From Hyphomicrobiales bacterium (lineage in GTDB: Bacteria; Pseudomonadota; Alphaproteobacteria; Rhizobiales; Beijerinckiaceae), in contig CANGOE010000002.1 of assembly GCA_947455455.1 (NCBI GenBank), positions 1 through 64,000 of the forward strand: a stretch of 64,000 nt of DNA, written 5' to 3'. Within the stretch, counting starts at the first letter, position 1, and each line of letters opens with the position of its first letter. A program made the translations under genes and the position numbers. The notes beneath the pieces are model-generated. The model was given only the letters and a program-made list of their open reading frames with translations, did not search any database and was not told where the DNA came from. Shown piece by piece: positions 10,839 to 24,841 of this stretch.

Positions 10839-11525
10839 TCAGGTGTTCCGGATATGGCCGTCCACGACCTCGATGATCCGGTCGCAACGCTCGGCCAGAG
10901 ACCGGTTATGTGTGACGATGATGAAGCAGGTGCGGCTTTTGGTGTTGACCTCGCGCATCAAGGCAAACACATCATCGGCGGATTTACTATCGAGATTGCC
11001 GGTCGGCTCGTCGGCCAGCACAATCTGCGGGGTCATCACCAAAGCGCGCGCCAAAGCAACGCGTTGCTGTTGGCCTCCCGACATATCAGTTGCCGGATGG
11101 TCGGCCACCTTGGTCAAACCCACCCTGTCGATCAGATCGCGGGCGCGGGCCTCGCAGGTCAGATCGGGAAATCCACGGTCGACCACCATCGGCAACATGA
11201 CATTTTCAAGGGCGGTAAATGCGGCAATCAGATGATGGTATTGAAACACAAAGCCGATGCTTTCCCCGCGCAAACGGGTCAGAGCGGCATCATCGAGCTG
11301 GCCGGTATCCTGCCCCTGAATAAACAGCTTGCCACTGCTGGGCCGGTCCAGCAGGCCGATAATATTCAACAGCGTGCTTTTACCGGACCCCGAAGGCCCC
11401 ATAATGGCGACAAACTCGCCCGCCTCCAATGTCAGATCGATCGCGTGCAACACCTCGGCCTGCGATGGTTCGCCCGCATGATAGACCTTGCCGATCCGTT
11501 CAAGCCGCAACAGGTGATCAGCCAC
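10839..11525 (-). CDS. ABC transporter ATP-binding protein (LolD/MacB-like)
   Basis: Walker [10 protein letters not shown], signature [15 protein letters not shown], Walker [12 protein letters not shown]. Confidence 0.92.
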
Positions 11526-12744
11526 GGATCGCCACCACAGGATCGAGCTTGGCCGCCCGCAAGGCCGGAGCCATGGCCGCCAACAAGCCCGTCAGAGTTG
11601 CCAGAACGGCGGTATAGACGAAAAGTTGCTGTTCCAGCACCAAAGGAAACAGCTCGCCGCCGTCAGACTGCCGGGCTACGGAATGCCAATAGACCAGCCC
11701 GCCCGCCCCCAGCACCGCCCCCACCAACGAGCCGGCAAAGCCCAACAAGCCGCCCTGCAACAGAAACAGGCGGATGATCTGCCCGCGCGTGGTGCCCATG
11801 GCCCGCAAAATCCCGATCTCTTTCGACCGCTGGATCACCGAAACCACCAATACGGCGGCAATGCCGAAGGCCACCGACAGGCCGACAAACAGCCGGATCA
11901 GCGTATTCGTGGCCTTTTGCGCCTGAATGGCCGAAAAGAATTGGGCATTGGTTTTGATCCAGCTCTCGGCCACCACCCTGTGCGAGGCCATGATGGTTTG
12001 GGCCATGTCCTCTGCCGCATAAATGTCGTGGAGGCTGACATCGAGCGAGGTGACCCCGCCGATCATACCCATCACCGATTGCGCCGTGCGCAAGGCGACA
12101 TAGGTACTGCGCTGATTGGCCGATTTGTTGCCGAAATCCAGCAAGCCGATAATGGTCAATACCCGCTGGCCGTCATTGGCCGAGGTGATATTGATCTTGT
12201 CACCGACCCGCGCGCCCAATTCTCTGGCCAGTTCGATCCCGATCAGGATGCTGTCACTGGTCAAGCGCGGGTGCCCTGCCACCACATAATCAGGGATTTT
12301 GACAATCCGGAAATAGGTATCCGGCTCGATCCCGACAAGCGTGATGGACCGGCTCGCCTCGCCACGGATGGCCAGCACCGATCCCGATATTGTCGGAGAG
12401 ACGAAGGTGATATTCGGCTCGTCCCGCAAAAGCCGGACAATGCTTTGCCATTGGTCGATCAGGGCAAGCCGCTGGCTGGGACGTTGCACCGTCGCATCCT
12501 CAATCTCGCGGGCAGGATCGCGCAGGATTCGCGCCACCTGATCGGGCGCAATGACCTGAATTTGGGCCTGTGTCGTCAGCACGCGCTTCAGGATATTGCT
12601 TTCGAGACCGGCCAGCATGGCCGACATGAACACGATCACACCGACCCCGATCGACACGCCCACCACGATAAACAGGGTTTGCAACCGCCCCTCATAGAGA
12701 AAGCGCACGGCAACAATCCATTCGAGCGGCAAGCCATACGTCAT
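11518..12744 (-). CDS. ABC transporter permease, FtsX/MacB-like
   Basis: N-terminal TM plus periplasmic domain, three C-terminal TMs; [16 protein letters not shown] motif. Confidence 0.9.
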
Positions 12745-13997
12745 GGCAGGACCGCCCTGACACGTTGGCCCGTGATGACACCGGCCCCGACAGGGATCAC
12801 CGCATCACCGTCAGCGGCCCCGTCCACAATTTCGTAATAGGCCGCGCCATGCACTCCGATCCGCACCGGCTGTTTGACCGCCCGTCCCTGTTTGATCCCC
12901 AAAATCCAAGGCCTGTTACTGATCGCATCATGCACCCCCCGCGCGGACACGATCAACACCTGATCCCGCCTTGCCACTTCGATATCGACCGAGACCGTCA
13001 TATCCTGCCGCAGGTAAGAAGGCGGATCATCGACCGTCAATTTCACCTCGACGGAGGCGCGGGACATATCGACGGCAGGATTGATAAACGCCACTTTGGC
13101 CGCAAAGGTCTGGTCCGGATAGGCATCGGCGGAGGCCAAAGCGGATTGGCCCAAGCGGAGCAACCCCAGATTGCGCTCGTCCAACTGGATCACCAATTGG
13201 GTTTCCCCGTCGGGGGCCAGCACCAGCAAAGCCTTGCCCGACTGGGCCACCATGCCGCGCTCCACCATCCGCCTGATCACAACTCCGTTGCGCGGCGCGG
13301 TGATGCTGGCATAAGCGAGGCGCGACAAGGCCGTATCCAGATTGGCGCGGGCCTGGGCAATCTGGGTTTGTGCGAAGACATAATCACTGCCACCCGGACT
13401 GGCATTGTAGACCTGCAACTGTGCCGTGCGCACCTGTGCTTTGGCCACTTCCAGATTTTTCTGCGCACCGTCCAGCGATGAAAAGGAGGCATAGCCTTTG
13501 GCAGTCAGATTGTCGGTGCGCTCGAAGGTCTTTTCGACCTCAAGCAGGGTCGCTCGCGCCCCGATCAGGCTTTCTTGTGCGGCTGGCAGGGTCATTTCGT
13601 TGAGCTGGCGCATATGGGCTTCGGCCTGATCCAGATTGCCTCGCGCCTGCACAACCCCAGCCTTCAACTCGCTGGCTTCGAGGCGGACAAGAATTTGTCC
13701 CGCTGTGACCTGCTCGCCCTCCCCGACCAGCACATCGGCGACAATACCGGTAATCTGGCTCCCGATATCGACACGATACGGGGTCTCGAAATGGCCACTG
13801 GCCACCACCGATTGCACCAGATTGCCGCGTTTGACCTGCTCGACAACCACCGCAGGGCCGAACAGCATTCGTGCCACCTGCCAGCCAGCAAACAGCACAA
13901 CCACAAAGGCTACGATCAAAAACCAACGATAGGACCACAGCAAAGCCAGCATGGAATACCGGCTCTCGGCTTTGTCCATTTCAATGTGACTGGCCAT
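12741..13997 (-). CDS. HlyD/MacA-family periplasmic adaptor subunit
   Basis: Single N-terminal TM; VVEQVKRGNLVQSVVASGHFETPYRVDIGSQITGIV; coiled-coil; ITAPRNGVVI. Confidence 0.88.
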   Translation of the reverse strand: MASHIEMDKAESRYSMLALLWSYRWFLIVAFVVVLFAGWQVARMLFGPAVVVEQVKRGNLVQSVVASGHFETPYRVDIGSQITGIVADVLVGEGEQVTAGQILVRLEASELKAGVVQARGNLDQAEAHMRQLNEMTLPAAQESLIGARATLLEVEKTFERTDNLTAKGYASFSSLDGAQKNLEVAKAQVRTAQLQVYNASPGGSDYVFAQTQIAQARANLDTALSRLAYASITAPRNGVVIRRMVERGMVAQSGKALLVLAPDGETQLVIQLDERNLGLLRLGQSALASADAYPDQTFAAKVAFINPAVDMSRASVEVKLTVDDPPSYLRQDMTVSVDIEVARRDQVLIVSARGVHDAISNRPWILGIKQGRAVKQPVRIGVHGAAYYEIVDGAADGDAVIPVGAGVITGQRVRAVLP

Positions 13998-14278
13998 CGA
14001 ACAACAGCATTGCAGTTGCGCTTACATGATCGGAATCAATCGGCATGGGTTATCTCCAGTCACTGGAACGCTCGTGAACCAGTTCAATAAAAATACAATA
14101 AAGATAATGATCAATAATATTAAATTTAATATTCAATATTATGTAAAAATTACGAACAATAAACATAATATATATGAAAGATACGTTTTAAATATAAATG
14201 ACAAATTTAATTTTATATAAAATTTTAAATTTTCAAAAGACTATTTATTACATAACCATTGAAAGGTGCACAGGTATC

Positions 14279-15334
14279 ATGCGCTACAAAATGATCCAGA
14301 CAGGTCTTGATGTGATGGGTCTGGTGCGCGCCGACCAATGGTTGTCGGGTTTGGGCATGGCTGGCCTGAAGCAGGGCCGTGGATTGATCCTGACACTGCA
14401 CAGGGTCAGGCCGCACCAAACCGGTGCGTTTGCACCGAACCGGTTTCTCGATATCACGCCCGAATTTCTTGATCACAGCCTTGGCTTCTTCCGAAAGGCC
14501 GGTTTCGAACCGCTTTCGATCGACCAATTGCCGGAACGGCTCGCCACCACAAACCGACAGACAAAGCCATTTTTTGTCGTCACCTTTGATGATGGCTACC
14601 GCGATGTGCTGGACCATGCCTGGCCGGTCCTGCGCAAACACCAATGCCCTTGGACCATCTATATCACCGGTGCCTATGCGCAAGGCCAGGGCCGTATCTG
14701 GTGGCTGGAATTGGAAGAGGCAATAGCCGGGCAGGATGCAATCAACCTGCAGATCGGCCCCCGCCCCGTTACACTCAAAACACAGTCTGTAGCTGAAAAA
14801 GCCAAGGCGTTCAGATGGTTGCGCAACCTCTTTTACAAGACACCCTCGCGCCAATGGCCCGCATTGCTTGACGACATACGGGCGCAATCAAGCGAGCCAT
14901 CGCGCCAAACGCCAGCAGTCCTATGCGCCAACTGGCAGGATCTGGCCGCCCTCCGCCATGATCCGTCCATCACCATCGGGTCACACACACTCACCCACCC
15001 CATCCTGTCACAGATTGGCGATGCGCAAGCCAGGCAGGAGATTGGCGCGAGCAGGCGCATGATTGCGGAAGCGCTCGGCACCGCGCCCCGCCATTTTTCA
15101 TATCCCTCAGGCGGCGCAAACAGTTTTTGCCGGCGCGATATCGAACTCGTCGCCCATGCAGGCTATCAAACAGCCGTCACCACCCGACCGGCCCATCTTT
15201 GGCCGATCAACAGCGGGGATCCGACAGCCCGCACCTCCCTGCTGACCCTGCCGCGCATTTCGCTGAACGGACATTTCCAGTCCGATGAATGGCTAAGGGC
15301 TATCGTATCGGGGTTGCCGTTCCGGCGATCCTGA
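14279..15334 (+). CDS. Polysaccharide deacetylase family protein (NodB/CE4)
   Basis: ILTLHRVRP; VVTFDDGYRDVLDHAWPVL; GSHTLTHPILSQI; RHFSYPSGG. Confidence 0.88.
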   Translation: MRYKMIQTGLDVMGLVRADQWLSGLGMAGLKQGRGLILTLHRVRPHQTGAFAPNRFLDITPEFLDHSLGFFRKAGFEPLSIDQLPERLATTNRQTKPFFVVTFDDGYRDVLDHAWPVLRKHQCPWTIYITGAYAQGQGRIWWLELEEAIAGQDAINLQIGPRPVTLKTQSVAEKAKAFRWLRNLFYKTPSRQWPALLDDIRAQSSEPSRQTPAVLCANWQDLAALRHDPSITIGSHTLTHPILSQIGDAQARQEIGASRRMIAEALGTAPRHFSYPSGGANSFCRRDIELVAHAGYQTAVTTRPAHLWPINSGDPTARTSLLTLPRISLNGHFQSDEWLRAIVSGLPFRRS

Positions 15335-15590
15335 CCAAGCCTGCCCGTTTTCTGCCTTCACGGTTTTATCGTCACCGTTTTTGCCGGGCCGTCACACCGT
15401 CCGGGATCGATAAAAGCACCATAATTCAATGAATGTAAAAACCCATGCGGAAATTGAATATCAATAAATAAAATTTACTTCGTATTTTAATTATACACAA
15501 AACACCCATTAATTAATTATTAATAACAAGTTCATGCCTCATCAAAATCAAATGATGATGTATTGATTATTACTATTTTAGGAGGGTTTG

Positions 15591-16283
15591 ATGTTTAATA
15601 ATTTCCGAAACATGAAGAATTTTAATTTAAAATTGAAATTCAGGAAATTCATAAACAAAAACATTCAATTCTTGGGTCTGGCCAGCAAAAGAACATGCGA
15701 CATTGTTTTGGCCTTTACAGGCATAGTCTTGACCCTTCCATTGTTCATCGCAATCGGTCTGCTGGTAGCCCTTGATGGCGGCCCGGTCTTTTATTCGCAT
15801 CAACGCATTGGCAAACAGGGCCGTAGCTTTGGATGCCTGAAATTCCGCACCATGATTTTGGGTGCGCAGGACTGTCTTGAGGAATACCTCTCCTATAATC
15901 CAGACGAGCGGCACGAATGGGAACACCATCAAAAACTGATGTTCGATCCGCGCACCACTGCGATCGGGCTGTTCCTGCGCAAGTCCAGTCTGGATGAATT
16001 GCCACAGCTGTTCAATGTCCTGATCGGCGACATGAGCTTTGTGGGCCCGCGTCCGGTCACACAGGCTGAATTGTCGCATTTTTACGGTCGAAAAGCGCGG
16101 TTCTACACCTCGATCCGTCCGGGCATTACCGGACCCTGGCAGATCAGCGGCCGCAACGAAATCGGTTACAGCCAGCGGGTTCAGCTCGATACTCGCTACG
16201 CGCTTCGCCACTCGTTCCTGAATGATCTGGTGATTTTGATGCGAACCCCCGCAGTCATCCTGTCCGGCAGAGGAGCACGGTAA
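15591..16283 (+). CDS. Undecaprenyl-phosphate sugar transferase (ExoY/WcaJ-type initiating glycosyltransferase)
   Basis: [68 protein letters not shown] Shine-Dalgarno. Confidence 0.93.
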
Positions 16284-16284
16284 T

Positions 16285-18744
16285 ATGGGCAAGATCGATG
16301 ATGTCGACACCATGCAAGAAACCTCGGAATTGACCAGTTCCAAAGGCATCCATTTCACCCAAACCCCGATCCCCGGCCTGACATTCGGACGCATCAAAGC
16401 CCCCGGCACCCATGCGCCGGAAGCTGAAGCCCCGATCAACCCCGCTATGACCGGGCACAAGACCATCAGTATCTTGATGTCCACCTATGCGGCTGAAAAG
16501 GCGACACATCTGGCCCAATCGCTCGAGAGTGTCTTTGCCCAGACCCTGCCCCCCAACCAGCTTGTTCTGGTGCTTGACGGCCCGATCCCGCCAGACCAGC
16601 GCAACGTGATCCGCCGCTATGAAAGCGACCCGCGCATTGCCACCGTTACCCTTGTCAATCTTCCGGAGAATGGCGGGCTGGCCAAAGCCATGAATGCGGG
16701 ATTGATGGCCTGCACCGGCGATTATATCGCCCGCATGGACTCCGATGACATCTGCCTGCCGGACCGCCTGAAACTGCAGGCCACCTATCTGCAAAACCAT
16801 CCCGATATCGACCTTGTCTCGTCATGGGCCGAGGAGTTTTTTCCCGGCGACCAACCGTCCAAGGTCAAGGTATCACCGGTCAATCATGAGCATGTGTCGC
16901 AAGCCCTGCGCTGGCGCAATGTGATCATCCATCCCACCATCATGGTCAAAGCGACTGCTTTGAGGGCGCTGGACGGCTATAGGAGCCGCTTTGCCTATCT
17001 GGAAGATTACGATCTGTTCATGCGGCTGGTCCAATCCGGCTACAAAATCCACGTTTTACCGAAAATCCTGTTGAAGGTCCGCACCAGCCTTGATCTTTAT
17101 GGCCGCCGTGGCGGGTTAAACTATTGCCTGACCGAAATGTCGTTCCGGTTTGAATGTTGGAAACGGGGTTTTCTCAAAACCCATGAATTTCTGACCACAA
17201 CCGGACTCTACATGCTGTTCCGGATGCTATCGGGTCCTTTGCGGCAATATGCCTATTCCATTGCCCGCACCGGCCTGTCCGAGCCCAAAAGCCACAATGA
17301 CAATGTGTCCCCTACCCCTTGGCTACAGCCCGATCGCTGGCGTGCATGGGCCATTCCGCCGGTCAAGGCCACACAGGCCAAAGTGATGGACCTGCTGGGA
17401 CTGGTCGAAACCAAATCGAAAAAGAACCGCTACACCCGATTTGCAACCGGCTTCAGCATCGTGATGCTGTGTGTGGCTCTGGCCTGGCCGATGTTGCCGC
17501 GCCGCTATGCCACAACCTCGTCGGTCATCCTGCACCAGACCGAGCAGGAGGATGCACAGGTCGGTTTGCGGCAAGGTATTCTGGATGACGGCGCGATCCA
17601 GTCGGAAATCGACCGCCTGTCCTCACCCGTTATCATCCATCGCGTGATCAACCAGCTCGGTCTGCTGGAGGACAAGGCGTTCCATCACGGCGGCCTGTTC
17701 TGGAGCAAAGCAGAACCCGTACAGGTGATGGAAGCCCTGCGCGAGCGCATTTCAGTGGTCCGCGAGCGGCGATCCTATACGTTGAAGGTCAATTTCTGGC
17801 ACCCCGACCCCGTTTATGCCGCCAAAATTACCAATGCACTGGTTTCGACCTATCTCGAAGACCAGATTGCCCGCAAGCAGGAGGGCATCCAGGCCCAAAC
17901 GCGCAGGCTGGAAGAACGCGTCGCCCAACTGCAGGCCAGCTATCAAGCGGCCCAAATCGGTGTACGTGATTTCATGGCCTTGAACGGTATCAGTGACCGG
18001 GCCGACGGGTCCGATTTGCAAGGCCAGCTCAATTCGCTCAGCACTGAACTGGCACAAGCCCGCGCCCGCAGTATCGAGTCACAGGTCCGCGCCGAAGCGC
18101 TCGGCCAGATGCAATGGGCCGGCACTTTGCTCAATGCCCCCGAAGTGGTGGCATCCCAACAGGTGCAACGGGCGCGTGACATGCTGGCAGTCGTCTATGC
18201 CAAGCCTGCGGCTTTGGCGACAGAGACCAGCAGTCTCAAATCAACCATCGAAGATGAAGCCGTCCGCATCATCAGCACGGCTGAACACGAGGCCAAAATC
18301 TGGCAGACCCGCAAGGAGCGGTTGCAAAACGAGATCGAAACCGTCCGGGCCGAAATGGTGACGCGCCGGATCAACGAAATGCATCTTGATGAATTGCGAC
18401 GCACCGCCCAATCGAACGAAACCTCCCTCAACGAGACGTTGGCCAAGCTCAACAACCAGCTTGGACGCACCAGAGCCATGCAACCCGATGCCGATATTGT
18501 GGCCGTGGCCGAAGAACCCTTGAAGCCTGCCACTCCCAATGGCTGGATGGCCCTGATCGGCACGCTGTTTGTCGCCTCAGCCGCGGGAGGCTTGGCCGCA
18601 ATGCGCCCAAGGGCTTTTGCCCGCTCGTTGCGCCGCACAGCCATGGCATTGCGCAAAGGGGGCAAAGCGATCAATCCCGCTCTCGATCCCGACGGCGCGA
18701 TCCCACCCGCGACATGCCACTCAAATCGGGAGCAAACGGCATGA
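16285..18744 (+). CDS. Fusion: family 2 glycosyltransferase (N-term) plus Wzz/GNVR-type polysaccharide co-polymerase (C-term)
   Basis: GT2: ISILMSTYAAEKATHLAQSLESVFAQT ... YIARMDSDDICLP; then TM (SIVMLCVALAWPM), long coiled coil, PLKPATPNGWMALIGTLFVAS Pro-rich/TM2. Confidence 0.85.
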   Translation: MGKIDDVDTMQETSELTSSKGIHFTQTPIPGLTFGRIKAPGTHAPEAEAPINPAMTGHKTISILMSTYAAEKATHLAQSLESVFAQTLPPNQLVLVLDGPIPPDQRNVIRRYESDPRIATVTLVNLPENGGLAKAMNAGLMACTGDYIARMDSDDICLPDRLKLQATYLQNHPDIDLVSSWAEEFFPGDQPSKVKVSPVNHEHVSQALRWRNVIIHPTIMVKATALRALDGYRSRFAYLEDYDLFMRLVQSGYKIHVLPKILLKVRTSLDLYGRRGGLNYCLTEMSFRFECWKRGFLKTHEFLTTTGLYMLFRMLSGPLRQYAYSIARTGLSEPKSHNDNVSPTPWLQPDRWRAWAIPPVKATQAKVMDLLGLVETKSKKNRYTRFATGFSIVMLCVALAWPMLPRRYATTSSVILHQTEQEDAQVGLRQGILDDGAIQSEIDRLSSPVIIHRVINQLGLLEDKAFHHGGLFWSKAEPVQVMEALRERISVVRERRSYTLKVNFWHPDPVYAAKITNALVSTYLEDQIARKQEGIQAQTRRLEERVAQLQASYQAAQIGVRDFMALNGISDRADGSDLQGQLNSLSTELAQARARSIESQVRAEALGQMQWAGTLLNAPEVVASQQVQRARDMLAVVYAKPAALATETSSLKSTIEDEAVRIISTAEHEAKIWQTRKERLQNEIETVRAEMVTRRINEMHLDELRRTAQSNETSLNETLAKLNNQLGRTRAMQPDADIVAVAEEPLKPATPNGWMALIGTLFVASAAGGLAAMRPRAFARSLRRTAMALRKGGKAINPALDPDGAIPPATCHSNREQTA

Positions 18745-19967
18745 CCGAATGCATGGACACCGAAGTGGCCCGCTCTTTCCAATCCCTGCTGGCTGAACCC
18801 CGTCACCGCCTGCGCGTTCTGTTCTGGCATTGGGGGCGCGGCGGGGCGGGTTCGAAATTCACCTTCGAACTGGTGCGCGCCGCCCAACAGATCGGGGACA
18901 TCGATTGCTATGTATCGGCGGTGGCCGATTGCGAATTGGCGGATCTGGTCCGGTCCCTCGGCGAGCCTTTGCCGCTGTGCGAAATCACAACCTTCAAAGG
19001 CAACAAAGCGACCATGACGGGCAAACTGGCCGCGCTTTACGGGCTGACAGGGCTGGCGCAGATCGGCCAGCAATTCAAGGAATTTATCGCCCGACACCAG
19101 ATCGATCTGGTGGTCTGCACCATGCCTGCCATCTGGGATGCGGCCGTGTTCGGGGTGATCCGCACCATGCAACTGCCTTTCATTCTGGTGGTGCATGATG
19201 CCACGCCGCATCCCGGCGACAGCTATCCGCTCCGCCACCTCACCATGCGCCGCGAAATGGTGGCCGCTGACGGGCTGATCGTGCTGTCCGACCATGTCAA
19301 ACAGCAAGTGATGGCCCGACACGCCATTTCCGCAGACCGGATCTGGACCTTGCCGCATGGGGCGTTTGAATTCGGCGTGAAAATGCAACGTCATCTGGAT
19401 CACAGCCGCCCGACCCGCCTGCTGTTTTTGGGCCGGATCGTGGCCTATAAGGGGCTTGATCTGTTGCTTGGGGCCTATCGGCTTTTGCAACAGCAAGGGG
19501 CCAATGTCTCACTGGAAGTGATGGGATCGGGCGATATCAGCCCCTATGCCGAACAATTGGACGGATTGTCCGGCGTCACCCTGATCAATCAATGGGTCGA
19601 CGAGGCCGATATCGGTGCCGCGCTGGCGCGCAATGATGTGATGGTCATGCCCTATCGCGAGGCCAGCCAATCGGGCGTTGCCGCATCGGCGGCAACCGCA
19701 GGCATGCCGATGGTGGCCACACCCGTAGGCGGCTTGACCGAACAGATCATCGACGGCACGACCGGCGTGATCGCGCCCACCGCCTGCGCGAATGGCGTGG
19801 CAACAGCCATCCGCCGTTTGATCGACGACCACGCACTCTATGCCCACTGCTCGGCTGGCGCGATGGCCTATGCCGAACAGGAACTGGGCTGGGGACCGAT
19901 TGCCCAGCGCATGGGTGCAATTGCGCGCGATGTCGTGTCCCGCAAACTGATTGCGGAATACGAATAA
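18741..19967 (+). CDS. Glycosyltransferase, GT4/GT-B family
   Basis: RLLFLGRIVAYKGLDLLLGAYRLL; VMPYREASQSGVAASAATAGMPMVATPVGGLTEQI; ATGA overlap with upstream gene. Confidence 0.9.
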   Translation: MTECMDTEVARSFQSLLAEPRHRLRVLFWHWGRGGAGSKFTFELVRAAQQIGDIDCYVSAVADCELADLVRSLGEPLPLCEITTFKGNKATMTGKLAALYGLTGLAQIGQQFKEFIARHQIDLVVCTMPAIWDAAVFGVIRTMQLPFILVVHDATPHPGDSYPLRHLTMRREMVAADGLIVLSDHVKQQVMARHAISADRIWTLPHGAFEFGVKMQRHLDHSRPTRLLFLGRIVAYKGLDLLLGAYRLLQQQGANVSLEVMGSGDISPYAEQLDGLSGVTLINQWVDEADIGAALARNDVMVMPYREASQSGVAASAATAGMPMVATPVGGLTEQIIDGTTGVIAPTACANGVATAIRRLIDDHALYAHCSAGAMAYAEQELGWGPIAQRMGAIARDVVSRKLIAEYE

Positions 19968-22126
19968 TGTCCGCGCTCGGCACCCCTCAATCGGCCATCG
20001 GACCGGGTGCGGCCACCCTGTTGCCGGGCTGGCTGTTCCGCCCTGCCGGTTTCGGTCTCTTGACAACGGGACTGACACTGGCCGGTGCCGGAACCTCCTT
20101 GCTTGCACCGTTATTGCTCGATCCGGTCGGGTTCGGAGCCTTTGCACTGGTCTCGACCGTATTACAGCTTCTGGCCGCCTGTGATCTCGGCATGTCCCAA
20201 CTGGCTGACCGCCGCATGGTGCAGGAGGCCTCCAACCCTGTGGCCCGCGAGAACGGGCAGGATGACATTCTGGCCCTGCGCTGGTGTGTCGCGCTGGTGA
20301 CTGCGGGGGTGATCGCGCCACTGGCGGTTGCAACTGTCTGGTGGACCCATGCCTTGCCGCCACTGGCAACAGGTTGCGCCATTGTCGCCGCCGCCGCCTT
20401 CATGGCCAATAATGGTCTGGTCTCGTTCTACCGCACCAACGCACAGCCGCAGGCCTTCATCCGCACAGCCCTGCTGATGCAATTCGGGATGACCTTGCCG
20501 CGTTTGGCCGGCCTGATGCTGGGCGGTGTCAGCGGTTGTTTTGCGGCTCTGGCCGTGTGGTATCTCGGTCTGGCCGCCCTTGTGGTGCGTCCGCAACCGT
20601 TGCGCGGTGCGCGTCTGATCCAGACGCTGAAAGCCGGATTGCCCCTGTTCGCCTTTAACGGCTTATGGCTGGTCTATCTGGTCGCGGGCCGCTGGATTTC
20701 GTGGAGCCTGTCGGCCAATGGGACCGAATTCGGCCTGCTGGCCTTCGGATCGAGTTTCGTCCTGATCGGGACCGGCCTGATCGCCAATATCAGCCAGATG
20801 CGCTATCCGCAGATTTTGCGGGCCGCCAGCCAATCCCTGCCGCAAGCCAGCCGCATGATGGCGCGGGATCTGTTGATCCTGAGCCTGCTGGTCACAGGCG
20901 TGACAGGTGTGGCCATTGCCTATGCCGATCCGCTGATCGAACGGTTGTTTCCCCATTATTATCCGGCTCTGGCCGCCAGTCTGGCTGTTTCCTTGTCGGG
21001 TCTGCCCCTCGCCCTTGTCGGCTGGACCCTGCCGCTGACCATGAGCCTGTCGCGCCATATCCTGCGCGATGCGGCTATCCTTTTTTTGCCCGTATTGGTC
21101 TGCCTCGTGCCGATGATGGCGCTGGGGCAACGTCTGGGTGGTATTGAAGGGCAGGCCTGGGCCTTGGTGGCCAATGCCGCCCTGCTGGCTGGCGTGCAAC
21201 TGGCCCTCTTGGTGCGGATCGGTGTGTTCAGCCGTGTCTTGTGCCTGAATGTTCTGGTCCTGATGGGCCTGTTGCTGGTGATGATGACAGCCGGAGTTAC
21301 ACGCGCACGGACGGAGCCCGCAAAGCCCTATCACCGCCCCGAAACGAGCCGATTGACCTTCGAGGATGATTTCAAAACCCTCAGCCTGTGGGATGGCCAT
21401 ACGGGCCACTGGTTACCGCATTTCCCCGATGGCCGCCGCACGATCGTCACCAATAAAGAGCGGGAATTTTACATCGACCCGCGCTCGGACGACCCCTTGA
21501 GCCACTATGATCCCTTCAGCGTGGGTGACGGCCTGTCCATCTCTGCACGTCCGCTTCAGCGGCAGGACAAACGGCTGGCATTGGGGCTCGATTATGCCTC
21601 AGGCATGCTCTATAGCCAGCCCGCTTTCCAGCAAACCTATGGCTATTTCGAAATCCGCGCCAAAATGCCGCGCGGTCGCGGTTTGTGGCCTGCCTTCTGG
21701 CTCGTTCCGGCCGATCAGTCGTGGCCGCCGGAAATCGATGTGTTCGAAGTGCATGGCCACCTGCTCGAGGGCTATTGGGCGACGGTGCATATGACACCGC
21801 AAGCCAACCGCTTCACCCATCGCTGGCAGGACAAGCTCAGCGAAACCTCGCAATTCCGCATCCATACGCCCGATCTGTCGCTCGATTTCCATGATTACGG
21901 GGTGGAATGGAACCCAAAGGAGATCATCTGGACCTTTGACGGCCAGCAGGTCGCCCAAATCCCGACACCGGCGGAATTACACAAACCGATGAGCATGATC
22001 GTCAATCTGGCCGTCGGCGGCACATGGCCGGGGCCTCCCGATGCCTCCACAGTCTTTCCCTCGGCCCTGCAGGTTCAACACATCCGCGCTTACCAATTCA
22101 ACACTGACCAAGAGGTGCCACAATGA
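19967..22126 (+). CDS. Fusion: Wzx-like polysaccharide flippase (N-term, about 19967-21310) plus GH16 endo-glycanase (C-term, about 21340-22126)
   Basis: About 13 hydrophobic segments, then LTFEDDFKTLSLWDG ... GYFEIRAKMPRGRGLWPAFWLVP ... PEIDVFEVHG (GH16 ExDxxE motif). Confidence 0.85.
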   Translation: MSALGTPQSAIGPGAATLLPGWLFRPAGFGLLTTGLTLAGAGTSLLAPLLLDPVGFGAFALVSTVLQLLAACDLGMSQLADRRMVQEASNPVARENGQDDILALRWCVALVTAGVIAPLAVATVWWTHALPPLATGCAIVAAAAFMANNGLVSFYRTNAQPQAFIRTALLMQFGMTLPRLAGLMLGGVSGCFAALAVWYLGLAALVVRPQPLRGARLIQTLKAGLPLFAFNGLWLVYLVAGRWISWSLSANGTEFGLLAFGSSFVLIGTGLIANISQMRYPQILRAASQSLPQASRMMARDLLILSLLVTGVTGVAIAYADPLIERLFPHYYPALAASLAVSLSGLPLALVGWTLPLTMSLSRHILRDAAILFLPVLVCLVPMMALGQRLGGIEGQAWALVANAALLAGVQLALLVRIGVFSRVLCLNVLVLMGLLLVMMTAGVTRARTEPAKPYHRPETSRLTFEDDFKTLSLWDGHTGHWLPHFPDGRRTIVTNKEREFYIDPRSDDPLSHYDPFSVGDGLSISARPLQRQDKRLALGLDYASGMLYSQPAFQQTYGYFEIRAKMPRGRGLWPAFWLVPADQSWPPEIDVFEVHGHLLEGYWATVHMTPQANRFTHRWQDKLSETSQFRIHTPDLSLDFHDYGVEWNPKEIIWTFDGQQVAQIPTPAELHKPMSMIVNLAVGGTWPGPPDASTVFPSALQVQHIRAYQFNTDQEVPQ

Positions 22127-23364
22127 TGACTTTCACACGCTCCACCGCCAAAAAAGCCCTGCTCTGGTCACTGGTCTGTGTGATAGGGGGGACATTGACC
22201 GGACCCGCACCGCTGAAAGCCGCACCGACCAACTATCGGCTGGATACCGGTGATATCATCGACATCGATATCTATGGCATTGCCGAATTCAAACGCCGTG
22301 CCACCGTCAATGTCGATGGCGATCTGGCCCTGCCCTTTATCGGGGCGTTGCATGTATCGGGCCTGTCACTGGCCGAATTGCGCCAGTCGATTGTGACCAA
22401 TCTGATGCAGTTGCAGGTGATCCAGAACCCGCAAGTGACGGTGGAAATTGCCGAGCACCGCCCCTTCTATATCAGCGGCGATGTGTCCCGCCCCGGCGCG
22501 ATCCCCTATCGCAAAGGATTGGCCGTACGTCACGCCATCGCGCTGGCCGGCGGGTTCGACGTGGTGCATTTTCGCACCGACAATCCCTTGATGGTCACCC
22601 CCGAATTACGGGCCCGCCAGCAGTCGCAATGGCTGGATCTGGTCAAAATCGAAGCTCGTGCCGCCAGCATCGAGGCCGAACTGGCAGACCGGACCAGCTT
22701 CGATCTGCCCGCGTCCTCCCTGCCTCCGCATGTCGCTCCATCGGTGGTGGTAGACATTGTACAGGCCGAACAACGCGCCCTCAAAGCCCGCTTGCAGGAA
22801 TGGACCATGCGCGTCTCGTTCCAGCAGGACCGGATCAACCAGATCAAAAGCAATATGGCCGATCTCTCGCTCGGATTACTCCAACAAAGCGAAGCCTTGA
22901 CCTATCAGGCCACAGCCGTTGAGCGCGTCGCCGACAATGTCGCCAAGGGGATCACACCCGTCAATCGCGGAGCCGAGGAGCGGAGGGGTCTGGCGCAGAT
23001 CAAGGCCCAGGAAATTGAAAACCGCTCGAAACTGGCCCAAGCCCAAGCCGAATTTGCCAGTGCCGAACGTGAATTCGACCGGATGAAGGGCGAGCGGACC
23101 TCCGATCTCAATCACGCTTTCGAGGAGGTCACCATCACCCGTGAAAAGGTCCGGCTGGAGCTGAAAGCCACACAAGAAAAACTGCTTTATGCGGGGGCTG
23201 TCAAATCGCAGATGGGCCGCGATGCGACACCCGACATCCTCATCTATCGGGTGGTCAACGGCACAACGACCATGATGACAGCCGATCCCGATACGCAGAT
23301 CCAACCCGGCGATCTGCTCGATGTGATGATCAATCATAAGGCCGCCAGCGCCAATACCCAATAG
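22123..23364 (+). CDS. Polysaccharide export protein (Wza/ExoF-like)
   Basis: YRLDTGDIIDIDIYGIAEFKRRATVNVDGDLALPFIGALHVSGLSLAELRQSI; SLBB-type segment FYISGDVSRPGAIPYRKGLAVRHAIALAGG. Confidence 0.88.
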   Translation: MMTFTRSTAKKALLWSLVCVIGGTLTGPAPLKAAPTNYRLDTGDIIDIDIYGIAEFKRRATVNVDGDLALPFIGALHVSGLSLAELRQSIVTNLMQLQVIQNPQVTVEIAEHRPFYISGDVSRPGAIPYRKGLAVRHAIALAGGFDVVHFRTDNPLMVTPELRARQQSQWLDLVKIEARAASIEAELADRTSFDLPASSLPPHVAPSVVVDIVQAEQRALKARLQEWTMRVSFQQDRINQIKSNMADLSLGLLQQSEALTYQATAVERVADNVAKGITPVNRGAEERRGLAQIKAQEIENRSKLAQAQAEFASAEREFDRMKGERTSDLNHAFEEVTITREKVRLELKATQEKLLYAGAVKSQMGRDATPDILIYRVVNGTTTMMTADPDTQIQPGDLLDVMINHKAASANTQ

Positions 23365-23431
23365 CACCTGTCTCAATCCCTTGATGCCTCGGTCCCGATG
23401 CATCCCACTTTGCCTGCAGGAGCCAGCGCCT

Positions 23432-24841
23432 ATGTCCAAAACAACGCAGAATGTCCTGTCACTGGTGACAGCCCCTTTGCAGACATGGGGGTTGATCGGC
23501 CTGATCCTTGCGGCAGGCCTTGGCTGGCTTGTGAGTGTACTCCTGTTCGATCATATGGCCCTGCTGGTCCCGCTCGGCCTGTCGACGGCGGCTTTCGGGA
23601 TCTGGTTTCTGGTTCAAGCGGCTTCAGGCCGCATCTGGGCGCTGTCCTTGATGACCGCTTTTGCACTGATTGTGCCGAATATCAGTTTTATCGAACGCGA
23701 TTTGAGCGAATCCACCAATCTGGATGCCCAAAAGGGCTTGAAACTGGTGCTGTGGCTGGCGATGGGCCTTGTGGCGGCGGCACGCTGGCCGCATTACAAG
23801 CATCTGCTGGGCAATCGGCTTGTCGGCGCGTTTTTGCTGTTCAGCCTGCTGGCCTCGCTGTCAACCCTGTGGTCCCCGACACCGGCCTATACGGCGGCAG
23901 GCGGCCTGAGCCTTGTAGCCAGCCTGCTGTTTTGCTGTGCGATTGCCGCAGAATTGCCTGAGGAGCTTTTTTTCAAAACCATTGCGGCATCAATGATCCT
24001 TTATCTGGCTTTGAACGGGGTGGCGGGGTTGTTTCTGCCCAGCATATCATGGGCGCACTCGCTGGGGGATGAGGAGACTGCCCGATTGGCCGGTGTAGCC
24101 AGTCATCCAAATGTCTTGGCCAAAGAAATTGCCTCCTTCATCTGCCTTGCCATTCCTTTGGCCTTGGTCCGCGACAAACGGCGCTTGGCGATCGGGCTTG
24201 GGCTGGCCGGATTTATCGTGATTGCGCTGACGGGCAGTCGGACATCGCTGATTGCGATTGTCGCCGCTTTTGCCATTCCCGCTCTGTTTCAAACGCGCCA
24301 TGTCCTTGGCCCCATGGTCTGGGCGGGAACCCTTTTGGTGGGGACGTTCATGGTTCTGATGGCGACCGGCCTTGTGGCTTTGCCTGCCAATCTGTTGGCC
24401 AGCATGAGCAGAGGCGGTGACGGATCGGAAATTCTGACCATGACAGGCCGCACCGAATTATGGGGCTTTGTCTGGGACAAAATCCTGCAAGCGCCTTTGT
24501 TGGGACACGGCTTCAACACCGCCCAAACCGTGCTCAGCATTGATTGGTGGGGACAGCCGGATGCCGCCGTCGGCGCGCATAATATGTGGTTGCAGTCGTT
24601 GCTAACCCTCGGAATCGTCGGCACGATCCCCTTCACCTATTGGCATTTTGCGATTGCCAAACAAGGGGTCAACAGCACCCGGATGCTTTCAAGCCATATC
24701 GGCATTTACATTTTCTTTCTCGGTTTGGCCGAAGTCGGCATTGCCGCCCATCCGAGCATTCTGACCTATGCGGCCTTTCTGGCCATAGCCCGCGATGCAC
24801 AGGCCCATTCTCCCATGTCCATCGCCTCCCCCTCAGTGTGA
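23432..24841 (+). CDS. O-antigen ligase/Wzy-like polymerase family membrane protein
   Basis: Multiple TMs; SHPNVLAKEIA, TGSRTSLIAIVAAF, TGRTELWGFVWDKILQAPLLGHGFNTAQ, AHNMWLQSLLTLGIVG. Confidence 0.88.
   Translation: MSKTTQNVLSLVTAPLQTWGLIGLILAAGLGWLVSVLLFDHMALLVPLGLSTAAFGIWFLVQAASGRIWALSLMTAFALIVPNISFIERDLSESTNLDAQKGLKLVLWLAMGLVAAARWPHYKHLLGNRLVGAFLLFSLLASLSTLWSPTPAYTAAGGLSLVASLLFCCAIAAELPEELFFKTIAASMILYLALNGVAGLFLPSISWAHSLGDEETARLAGVASHPNVLAKEIASFICLAIPLALVRDKRRLAIGLGLAGFIVIALTGSRTSLIAIVAAFAIPALFQTRHVLGPMVWAGTLLVGTFMVLMATGLVALPANLLASMSRGGDGSEILTMTGRTELWGFVWDKILQAPLLGHGFNTAQTVLSIDWWGQPDAAVGAHNMWLQSLLTLGIVGTIPFTYWHFAIAKQGVNSTRMLSSHIGIYIFFLGLAEVGIAAHPSILTYAAFLAIARDAQAHSPMSIASPSV

Follow-up and report, generated by a model that had tools for sequence, protein, structure and literature searches.

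A single gene in the DNA analysed here (64,000 nucleotides of a Hyphomicrobiales bacterium, hereafter the window) encodes a Wzx-type flippase joined to a GH16 glycanase domain. The fusion is a real and conserved architecture made of two well-known parts, and it is undescribed as far as the open-licence literature shows. We found no published flippase-GH16 fusion in the open-licence PMC literature, though one may still be described elsewhere, and the GH16 subfamily paper does not mention flippases.

The gene (19967..22126, plus strand) reads as 719 codons from an ATG start, with no internal stop. From the N- to the C-terminus, the protein consists of a 12-TM MOP/Wzx-type region, a thirteenth helix (TM13), a linker and the GH16 domain. 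The first-pass annotation had described both halves as one polypeptide of 719 aa, and the uninterrupted frame bears this out; we looked for a frameshift or a stop codon between the halves and found neither.

Distribution and conservation

The whole protein served as query against 248 genomes from the window's family; we rebuilt the ORFs and aligned 13 fusions. Full-length fusions in a single ORF were found in the window's genome and in 12 others. Identity to the window protein is 81% in G098 and 52% in G028, and lies between 37 and 44% in the remaining ten (G230, G195, G070, G208, G005, G047, G073, G194, G068 and G029). Two more fusions (G558 and G1115) occur in a second family of the order. 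In summary, the fusion is present in 15 genomes, and the 14 other than the window's span at least eight genera and two families. In a further genome (G219) the fusion is interrupted by contig ends, and two genomes of one genus (G1437 and G1441) are candidates, each with a strong flippase match inside an open frame long enough for a fusion. Orthologues are mostly fused; in one relative, G117, flippase and GH16 are separate genes.

Flippase-profile searches covering 395 genomes from the class and 349 from the phylum turned up no fusion outside the order; since few candidates were scored per genome, rarer cases may be missed. The strong flippase matches from beyond the order (G733 and G875) are unfused. 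The distribution is patchy, with the fusion in two of the five genomes of the window's own genus. One fused relative, on contig CANFLM010000001.1, belongs to a Hyphomicrobiales MAG. In a plasmid search no match spanned 80% of the protein, and among the matches listed only the GH16 part was found.

Between the window protein and that of G098, the flippase half and GH16 each have a dN/dS of 0.15, while TM13 with the linker has one of 0.35. Both domains are therefore under purifying selection. The flippase half keeps 43 invariant columns in the 13 aligned sequences. A single origin of the fusion is likely rather than firm, because the deep branches of the flippase-domain tree are not resolved and two distant unfused sequences (L078 and L079) fall inside it on long branches.

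Assignment of the two domains

The GH16 half (residues 463-711; 21353..22099, plus strand) matches PF00722 well above the cut-off (E = 6.4e-24; 84.8 bits against 22), and its closest solved structures are laminarinases, e.g. 3azx (1.2e-27). The catalytic E-x-D-x-x-E motif (21731..21748, plus strand) is intact as WPPEIDVFE, and E589, D591 and E594 do not vary among the 13 aligned fusions. The first-pass annotation had named a GH16 domain with an intact EIDVFE motif, and the profile match and the invariant residues uphold this. The comparison with ExoK made at the same time did not hold. On the NCBIfam EglC equivalog (NF052454; 3.6e-65) the protein scores 220.7 bits against a cut-off of 700, with the GH16 half alone aligning, whereas on the ExoK equivalog (NF052392) it scores 19.3 bits against 350. 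We take the spacing of the motif to be of the beta-bulge (laminarinase) type and not of the lichenase/ExoK type. Judged by profile scores, the GH16 of the fusion is EglC/laminarinase-like, not ExoK-like. No other GH16 was found in the window's genome, the assembly of which is 86% complete.

The flippase half (residues ~26-415; 20042..21211, plus strand) was more difficult to place. In the window protein it has no Pfam match even at E <= 1 and no NCBIfam match. However, hits to PF01943 (Polysacc_synt) at E <= 1 occur in 8 of the 13 aligned sequences, the best at 1e-9, and the MOP/Wzx assignment therefore stands by way of the orthologues, the half being, on this evidence, strongly diverged in the window's lineage. 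Domain searches thus recovered GH16 directly and the flippase only through its relatives. A profile search of the PDB that started from the flippase half gave no meaningful match, and hhalign of the flippase profile against the genome's two other flippases, taken as single-sequence targets, was insignificant.

Membrane topology

Hydropathy averaged over the alignment of 13 fused sequences fits the MOP pattern of 12 helices, followed by one more helix at residues ~427-447 (21245..21307, plus strand). Positive charges follow this model. Over 15 fused sequences, the mean number of Lys and Arg in the inside loops is 3.3, 3.6, 1.1, 4.0, 4.0, 2.1 and 2.1, and in the outside loops 0.3, 0.3, 0, 0.1, 0.9 and 0.5, so that the alternation is perfect over all 13 helices, each inside loop (1.1-4.0) exceeding each outside loop up to TM13 (0-0.9). 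An AlphaFold model of the whole protein draws 13 long helices. Its GH16 part is good (pLDDT mostly 70-90), while the flippase half is poor (pLDDT ~40), since the input included one full-length orthologue only.

The predicted topology, from hydropathy and charge alike, thus has 12 TM helices with a cytoplasmic N-terminus, as in Wzx flippases. WzxE, a 12-TM protein, has its two termini in the cytoplasm (PMC11706664), and the fusions depart from it in having TM13 where the WzxE chain ends; a cytoplasmic C-terminus after TM12 is not known to be universal among Wzx proteins. Because the WzxE C-terminus is cytoplasmic after TM12, an additional helix would place the GH16 outside. A periplasmic GH16, as the first-pass annotation had proposed from 13 TMs, is therefore well supported as a prediction.

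Origin of the fusion

The same note had called the hydrophobic segment before GH16 an extra one. This must be revised, as TM13 is also found in the unfused flippases (L063, L064, L072, L078 and L079) of five relatives (G117, G207, G228, G733 and G875). Since these carry TM13, it was probably not brought along with GH16, and for the same reason TM13 is unlikely to be a relic of a GH16 signal peptide. The likely history, read from the sequences, is that a flippase which already had 13 TMs and a periplasmic tail later gained GH16.

In G117 the 13-TM flippase and the GH16 are separate genes of one EPS cluster (L063:5695-11421, minus strand). The flippase has its C-terminus just behind TM13; beyond a Wzy-like frame lies the gene for GH16. 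The GH16 protein starts MTPVRPLAASRRGALGLLAAAPLTVLASRSPRAA, and by eye its SRRGALG resembles a Tat-like export signal. In the GH16 tree the G117 sequence is nested among the fusions, on a branch starred at 96 and with two changes needed to account for the fused set, so the gene pair is probably a secondary split of the fusion. The Tat-like signal on the freed GH16 is the strongest indication from sequence that the domain works outside the cytoplasm. L027, the unfused GH16 that is nearest in the tree, begins like a signal peptide.

We also saw related GH16 domains in other settings. One ORF of G079 (L020:1-2166, plus strand) joins a GT2 glycosyltransferase, a TM segment with A-x-A and a related GH16. 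In the GH16 tree this domain branches apart from the flippase fusions, and exported GH16 domains have therefore probably been joined to EPS assembly proteins at least twice. Three fusion genomes also encode, 1-2 kb from the fusion, a free-standing GH16 protein that carries RTX-type repeats at its C-terminus and is a probable type I secretion substrate (L054:6500-7984, L055:11199-12716 and L056:6339-7874); tethered and secreted glycanases thus coexist. In one genus, a protein of ~930 aa with AMP-binding, carrier and thioesterase domains (checked in L060) directly adjoins the fusion (L060:10322-13117, minus strand; L061; L062).

Operon context and proposed function

The operon genes and the deacetylase before them lie on the plus strand. 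The polysaccharide deacetylase (14198..15334; PF01522, 7.6e-20) is a conserved neighbour, adjoining most fusions. The operon comprises an initiating phosphoglycosyltransferase of the WbaP C-terminal type (15588..16283; PF02397, 1.1e-56; TIGR03022, 1.2e-82), a GT2 glycosyltransferase with a Wzz/EpsF-like co-polymerase (16285..18744; profile matches), a GT4 glycosyltransferase (18714..19967; PF13692, 6.5e-23), the fusion, a Wza-type polysaccharide export protein (22123..23364; PF02563, 5.5e-21) and a Wzy-type polymerase (23381..24841; PF04932 Wzy_C, 6.1e-16). The fusion overlaps both neighbours: the GT4 gene ends at 19967 and the Wza gene starts at 22123, a 4-bp overlap. With the phosphoglycosyltransferase, glycosyltransferases, Wzx, Wzy, Wzz and Wza all clustered together, this is the complete gene content of a Wzx/Wzy-dependent EPS operon, and most relatives, including those from other genera, have the same kinds of genes around the fusion. 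The fusion is the operon's only flippase candidate; two further Polysacc_synt proteins, encoded elsewhere in the genome, could flip.

The operon holds a second fusion, as the GT2 and Wzz/EpsF-like parts form one protein of 819 aa (815 aa in G098); in more distant relatives, e.g. G230, they are separate adjacent ORFs. Upstream of the operon (11518-13997), a divergent pair encodes an HlyD/RND-type periplasmic adaptor and an FtsX/LolE-like permease, and is kept in G098.

The explanation that we consider rather probable is that the protein is bifunctional and resides in the inner membrane, with an endo-beta-glycanase that trims nascent EPS, or clears it, at the point where the repeat units come out. 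The N-terminal MOP-family domain would flip lipid-linked repeat units to the periplasm, and TM13 would carry the chain across the membrane again, leaving GH16 in the periplasm beside the flippase exit, presumably near Wzy. There it would cut the new EPS chain, either setting its length or clearing polymer that is not exported. This explanation draws on sequence throughout, i.e. on the fusion itself, its conservation, the catalytic motif, the operon context and the topology signal; from these we infer the flipping activity, the glycanase activity on the operon's EPS and co-location as the reason for the fusion.

Trimming or clearance is favoured because of three precedents. Deletion of the GH16 PrmQ in Sphingomonas LM7 gives rugose colonies and altered EPS (PMC11340318), ExoK and ExsH together make low-molecular-weight succinoglycan (PMC4916376), and AlgL clears polymer in the periplasm (PMC5099689). 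On the other hand, the wzx of the LM7 cluster itself is dispensable (PMC11340318), which counts against this explanation, as do the two other Polysacc_synt proteins and the missing family match of the window's flippase half. The split in G117 shows that tethering is not indispensable.

The first-pass annotation had suggested that export is coupled to trimming, transglycosylation or quality control, and such coupling of flippase and GH16 is plausible from the sequence. A stronger version, in which a Wzx with a built-in periplasmic glycanase at the translocation point coordinates flipping, polymerisation and cutting in one complex, is tentative and on balance doubtful; if true, the complex would be a way to set EPS chain length besides Wzz.

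Alternative explanations

Potentially, the fusion could be no more than an export device, with TM13 serving as an internal signal peptide behind which signal peptidase cuts, freeing soluble GH16 into the periplasm, so that the two activities would be encoded together but located apart. We consider this unlikely, while of the alternatives it survives best. The linker (residues 448-462; 21308..21352, plus strand) begins with a weak signal-peptidase-like TRA/RT, linkers evolve faster than either domain, and classical A-x-A motifs follow TM13 in L101 (SARA/EV), L071 (ARA/QT), L053 (AAA/ET), L057 and L051, as well as the TM segment of the separate GT2-GH16 protein of G079. However, A-x-A is not clearly enriched, being present in 8 of the 15 linkers against a mean of 5.2 in shuffles of these Ala-rich linkers (p ~0.07); L060-L062 and L054 lack a convincing site, and that of the window is weak.

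It is less probable still that the MOP half is a mere membrane anchor which no longer flips, holding GH16 at the inner membrane while other flippases serve the operon. The two other Polysacc_synt proteins and the divergence of the window copy from the Pfam models would fit such a role, but strong purifying selection runs along the flippase half, as its dN/dS and invariant columns indicate, and the operon has no other flippase candidate. We see very little chance that GH16 is cytosolic (with 12 or 14 TMs), where it would act on lipid-linked units or be inactive. The cytoplasmic C-terminus of canonical Wzx speaks for this placement, whereas the charge alternation over 13 helices argues against it, as do the export signals found on GH16 in G117, where it is split off, and in L027, and the RTX repeats or signal peptides that many GH16 relatives bear, like secreted enzymes. 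That a sequencing error joined two genes, or that GH16 is translated from an internal start, is a negligible prospect: ATG and GTG codons are present inside TM13, but none is a conserved start with a Shine-Dalgarno sequence, and an artefact or frameshift is ruled out by the full-length fusions in 14 other genomes together with purifying selection on both halves.

Comparison with known systems

Glycanases are found in many EPS operons, where their purpose is unclear, and there is debate over whether they are free in the periplasm or belong to the assembly machine, AlgL being a case. The recurrence of the fusion in about 15 related genomes suggests a cutter built into the machine that exports EPS building blocks. 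With a natural covalent link under selection and a naturally split relative, the question of location becomes directly testable, and the link is itself physical evidence for the site at which such a glycanase acts.

The fusion resembles Wzx flippases such as E. coli WzxE (PF01943) in its 12-TM two-lobe hydropathy layout, its cytoplasmic N-terminus and its operon with Wzy, Wzz and Wza, and differs in the added TM13 and C-terminal periplasmic GH16. Both family score and similarity place the GH16 half nearest to the rhizobial EPS glycanases of the EglC/ExsH type, of which ExsH acts on self-made EPS; unlike the fusion, which has neither RTX repeats nor a signal of its own, these are separate proteins with RTX repeats and type I secretion. 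ExoK of Sinorhizobium meliloti is likewise a GH16 tied to an EPS pathway, but it is a separate secreted protein, and the fusion, with its beta-bulge motif, scores 19 bits on the ExoK model against 221 on that of EglC. AlgL of Pseudomonas aeruginosa is likewise a periplasmic polymer-degrading enzyme encoded in an EPS operon, with a proposed role in removing misguided polymer, but it is a lyase, free in the periplasm, and belongs to a synthase-dependent pathway. In Sphingomonas sp. LM7, PrmQ (GH16) and PrmI (Wzx) belong to one EPS operon and loss of the GH16 alters the EPS, but the two are encoded by separate genes.
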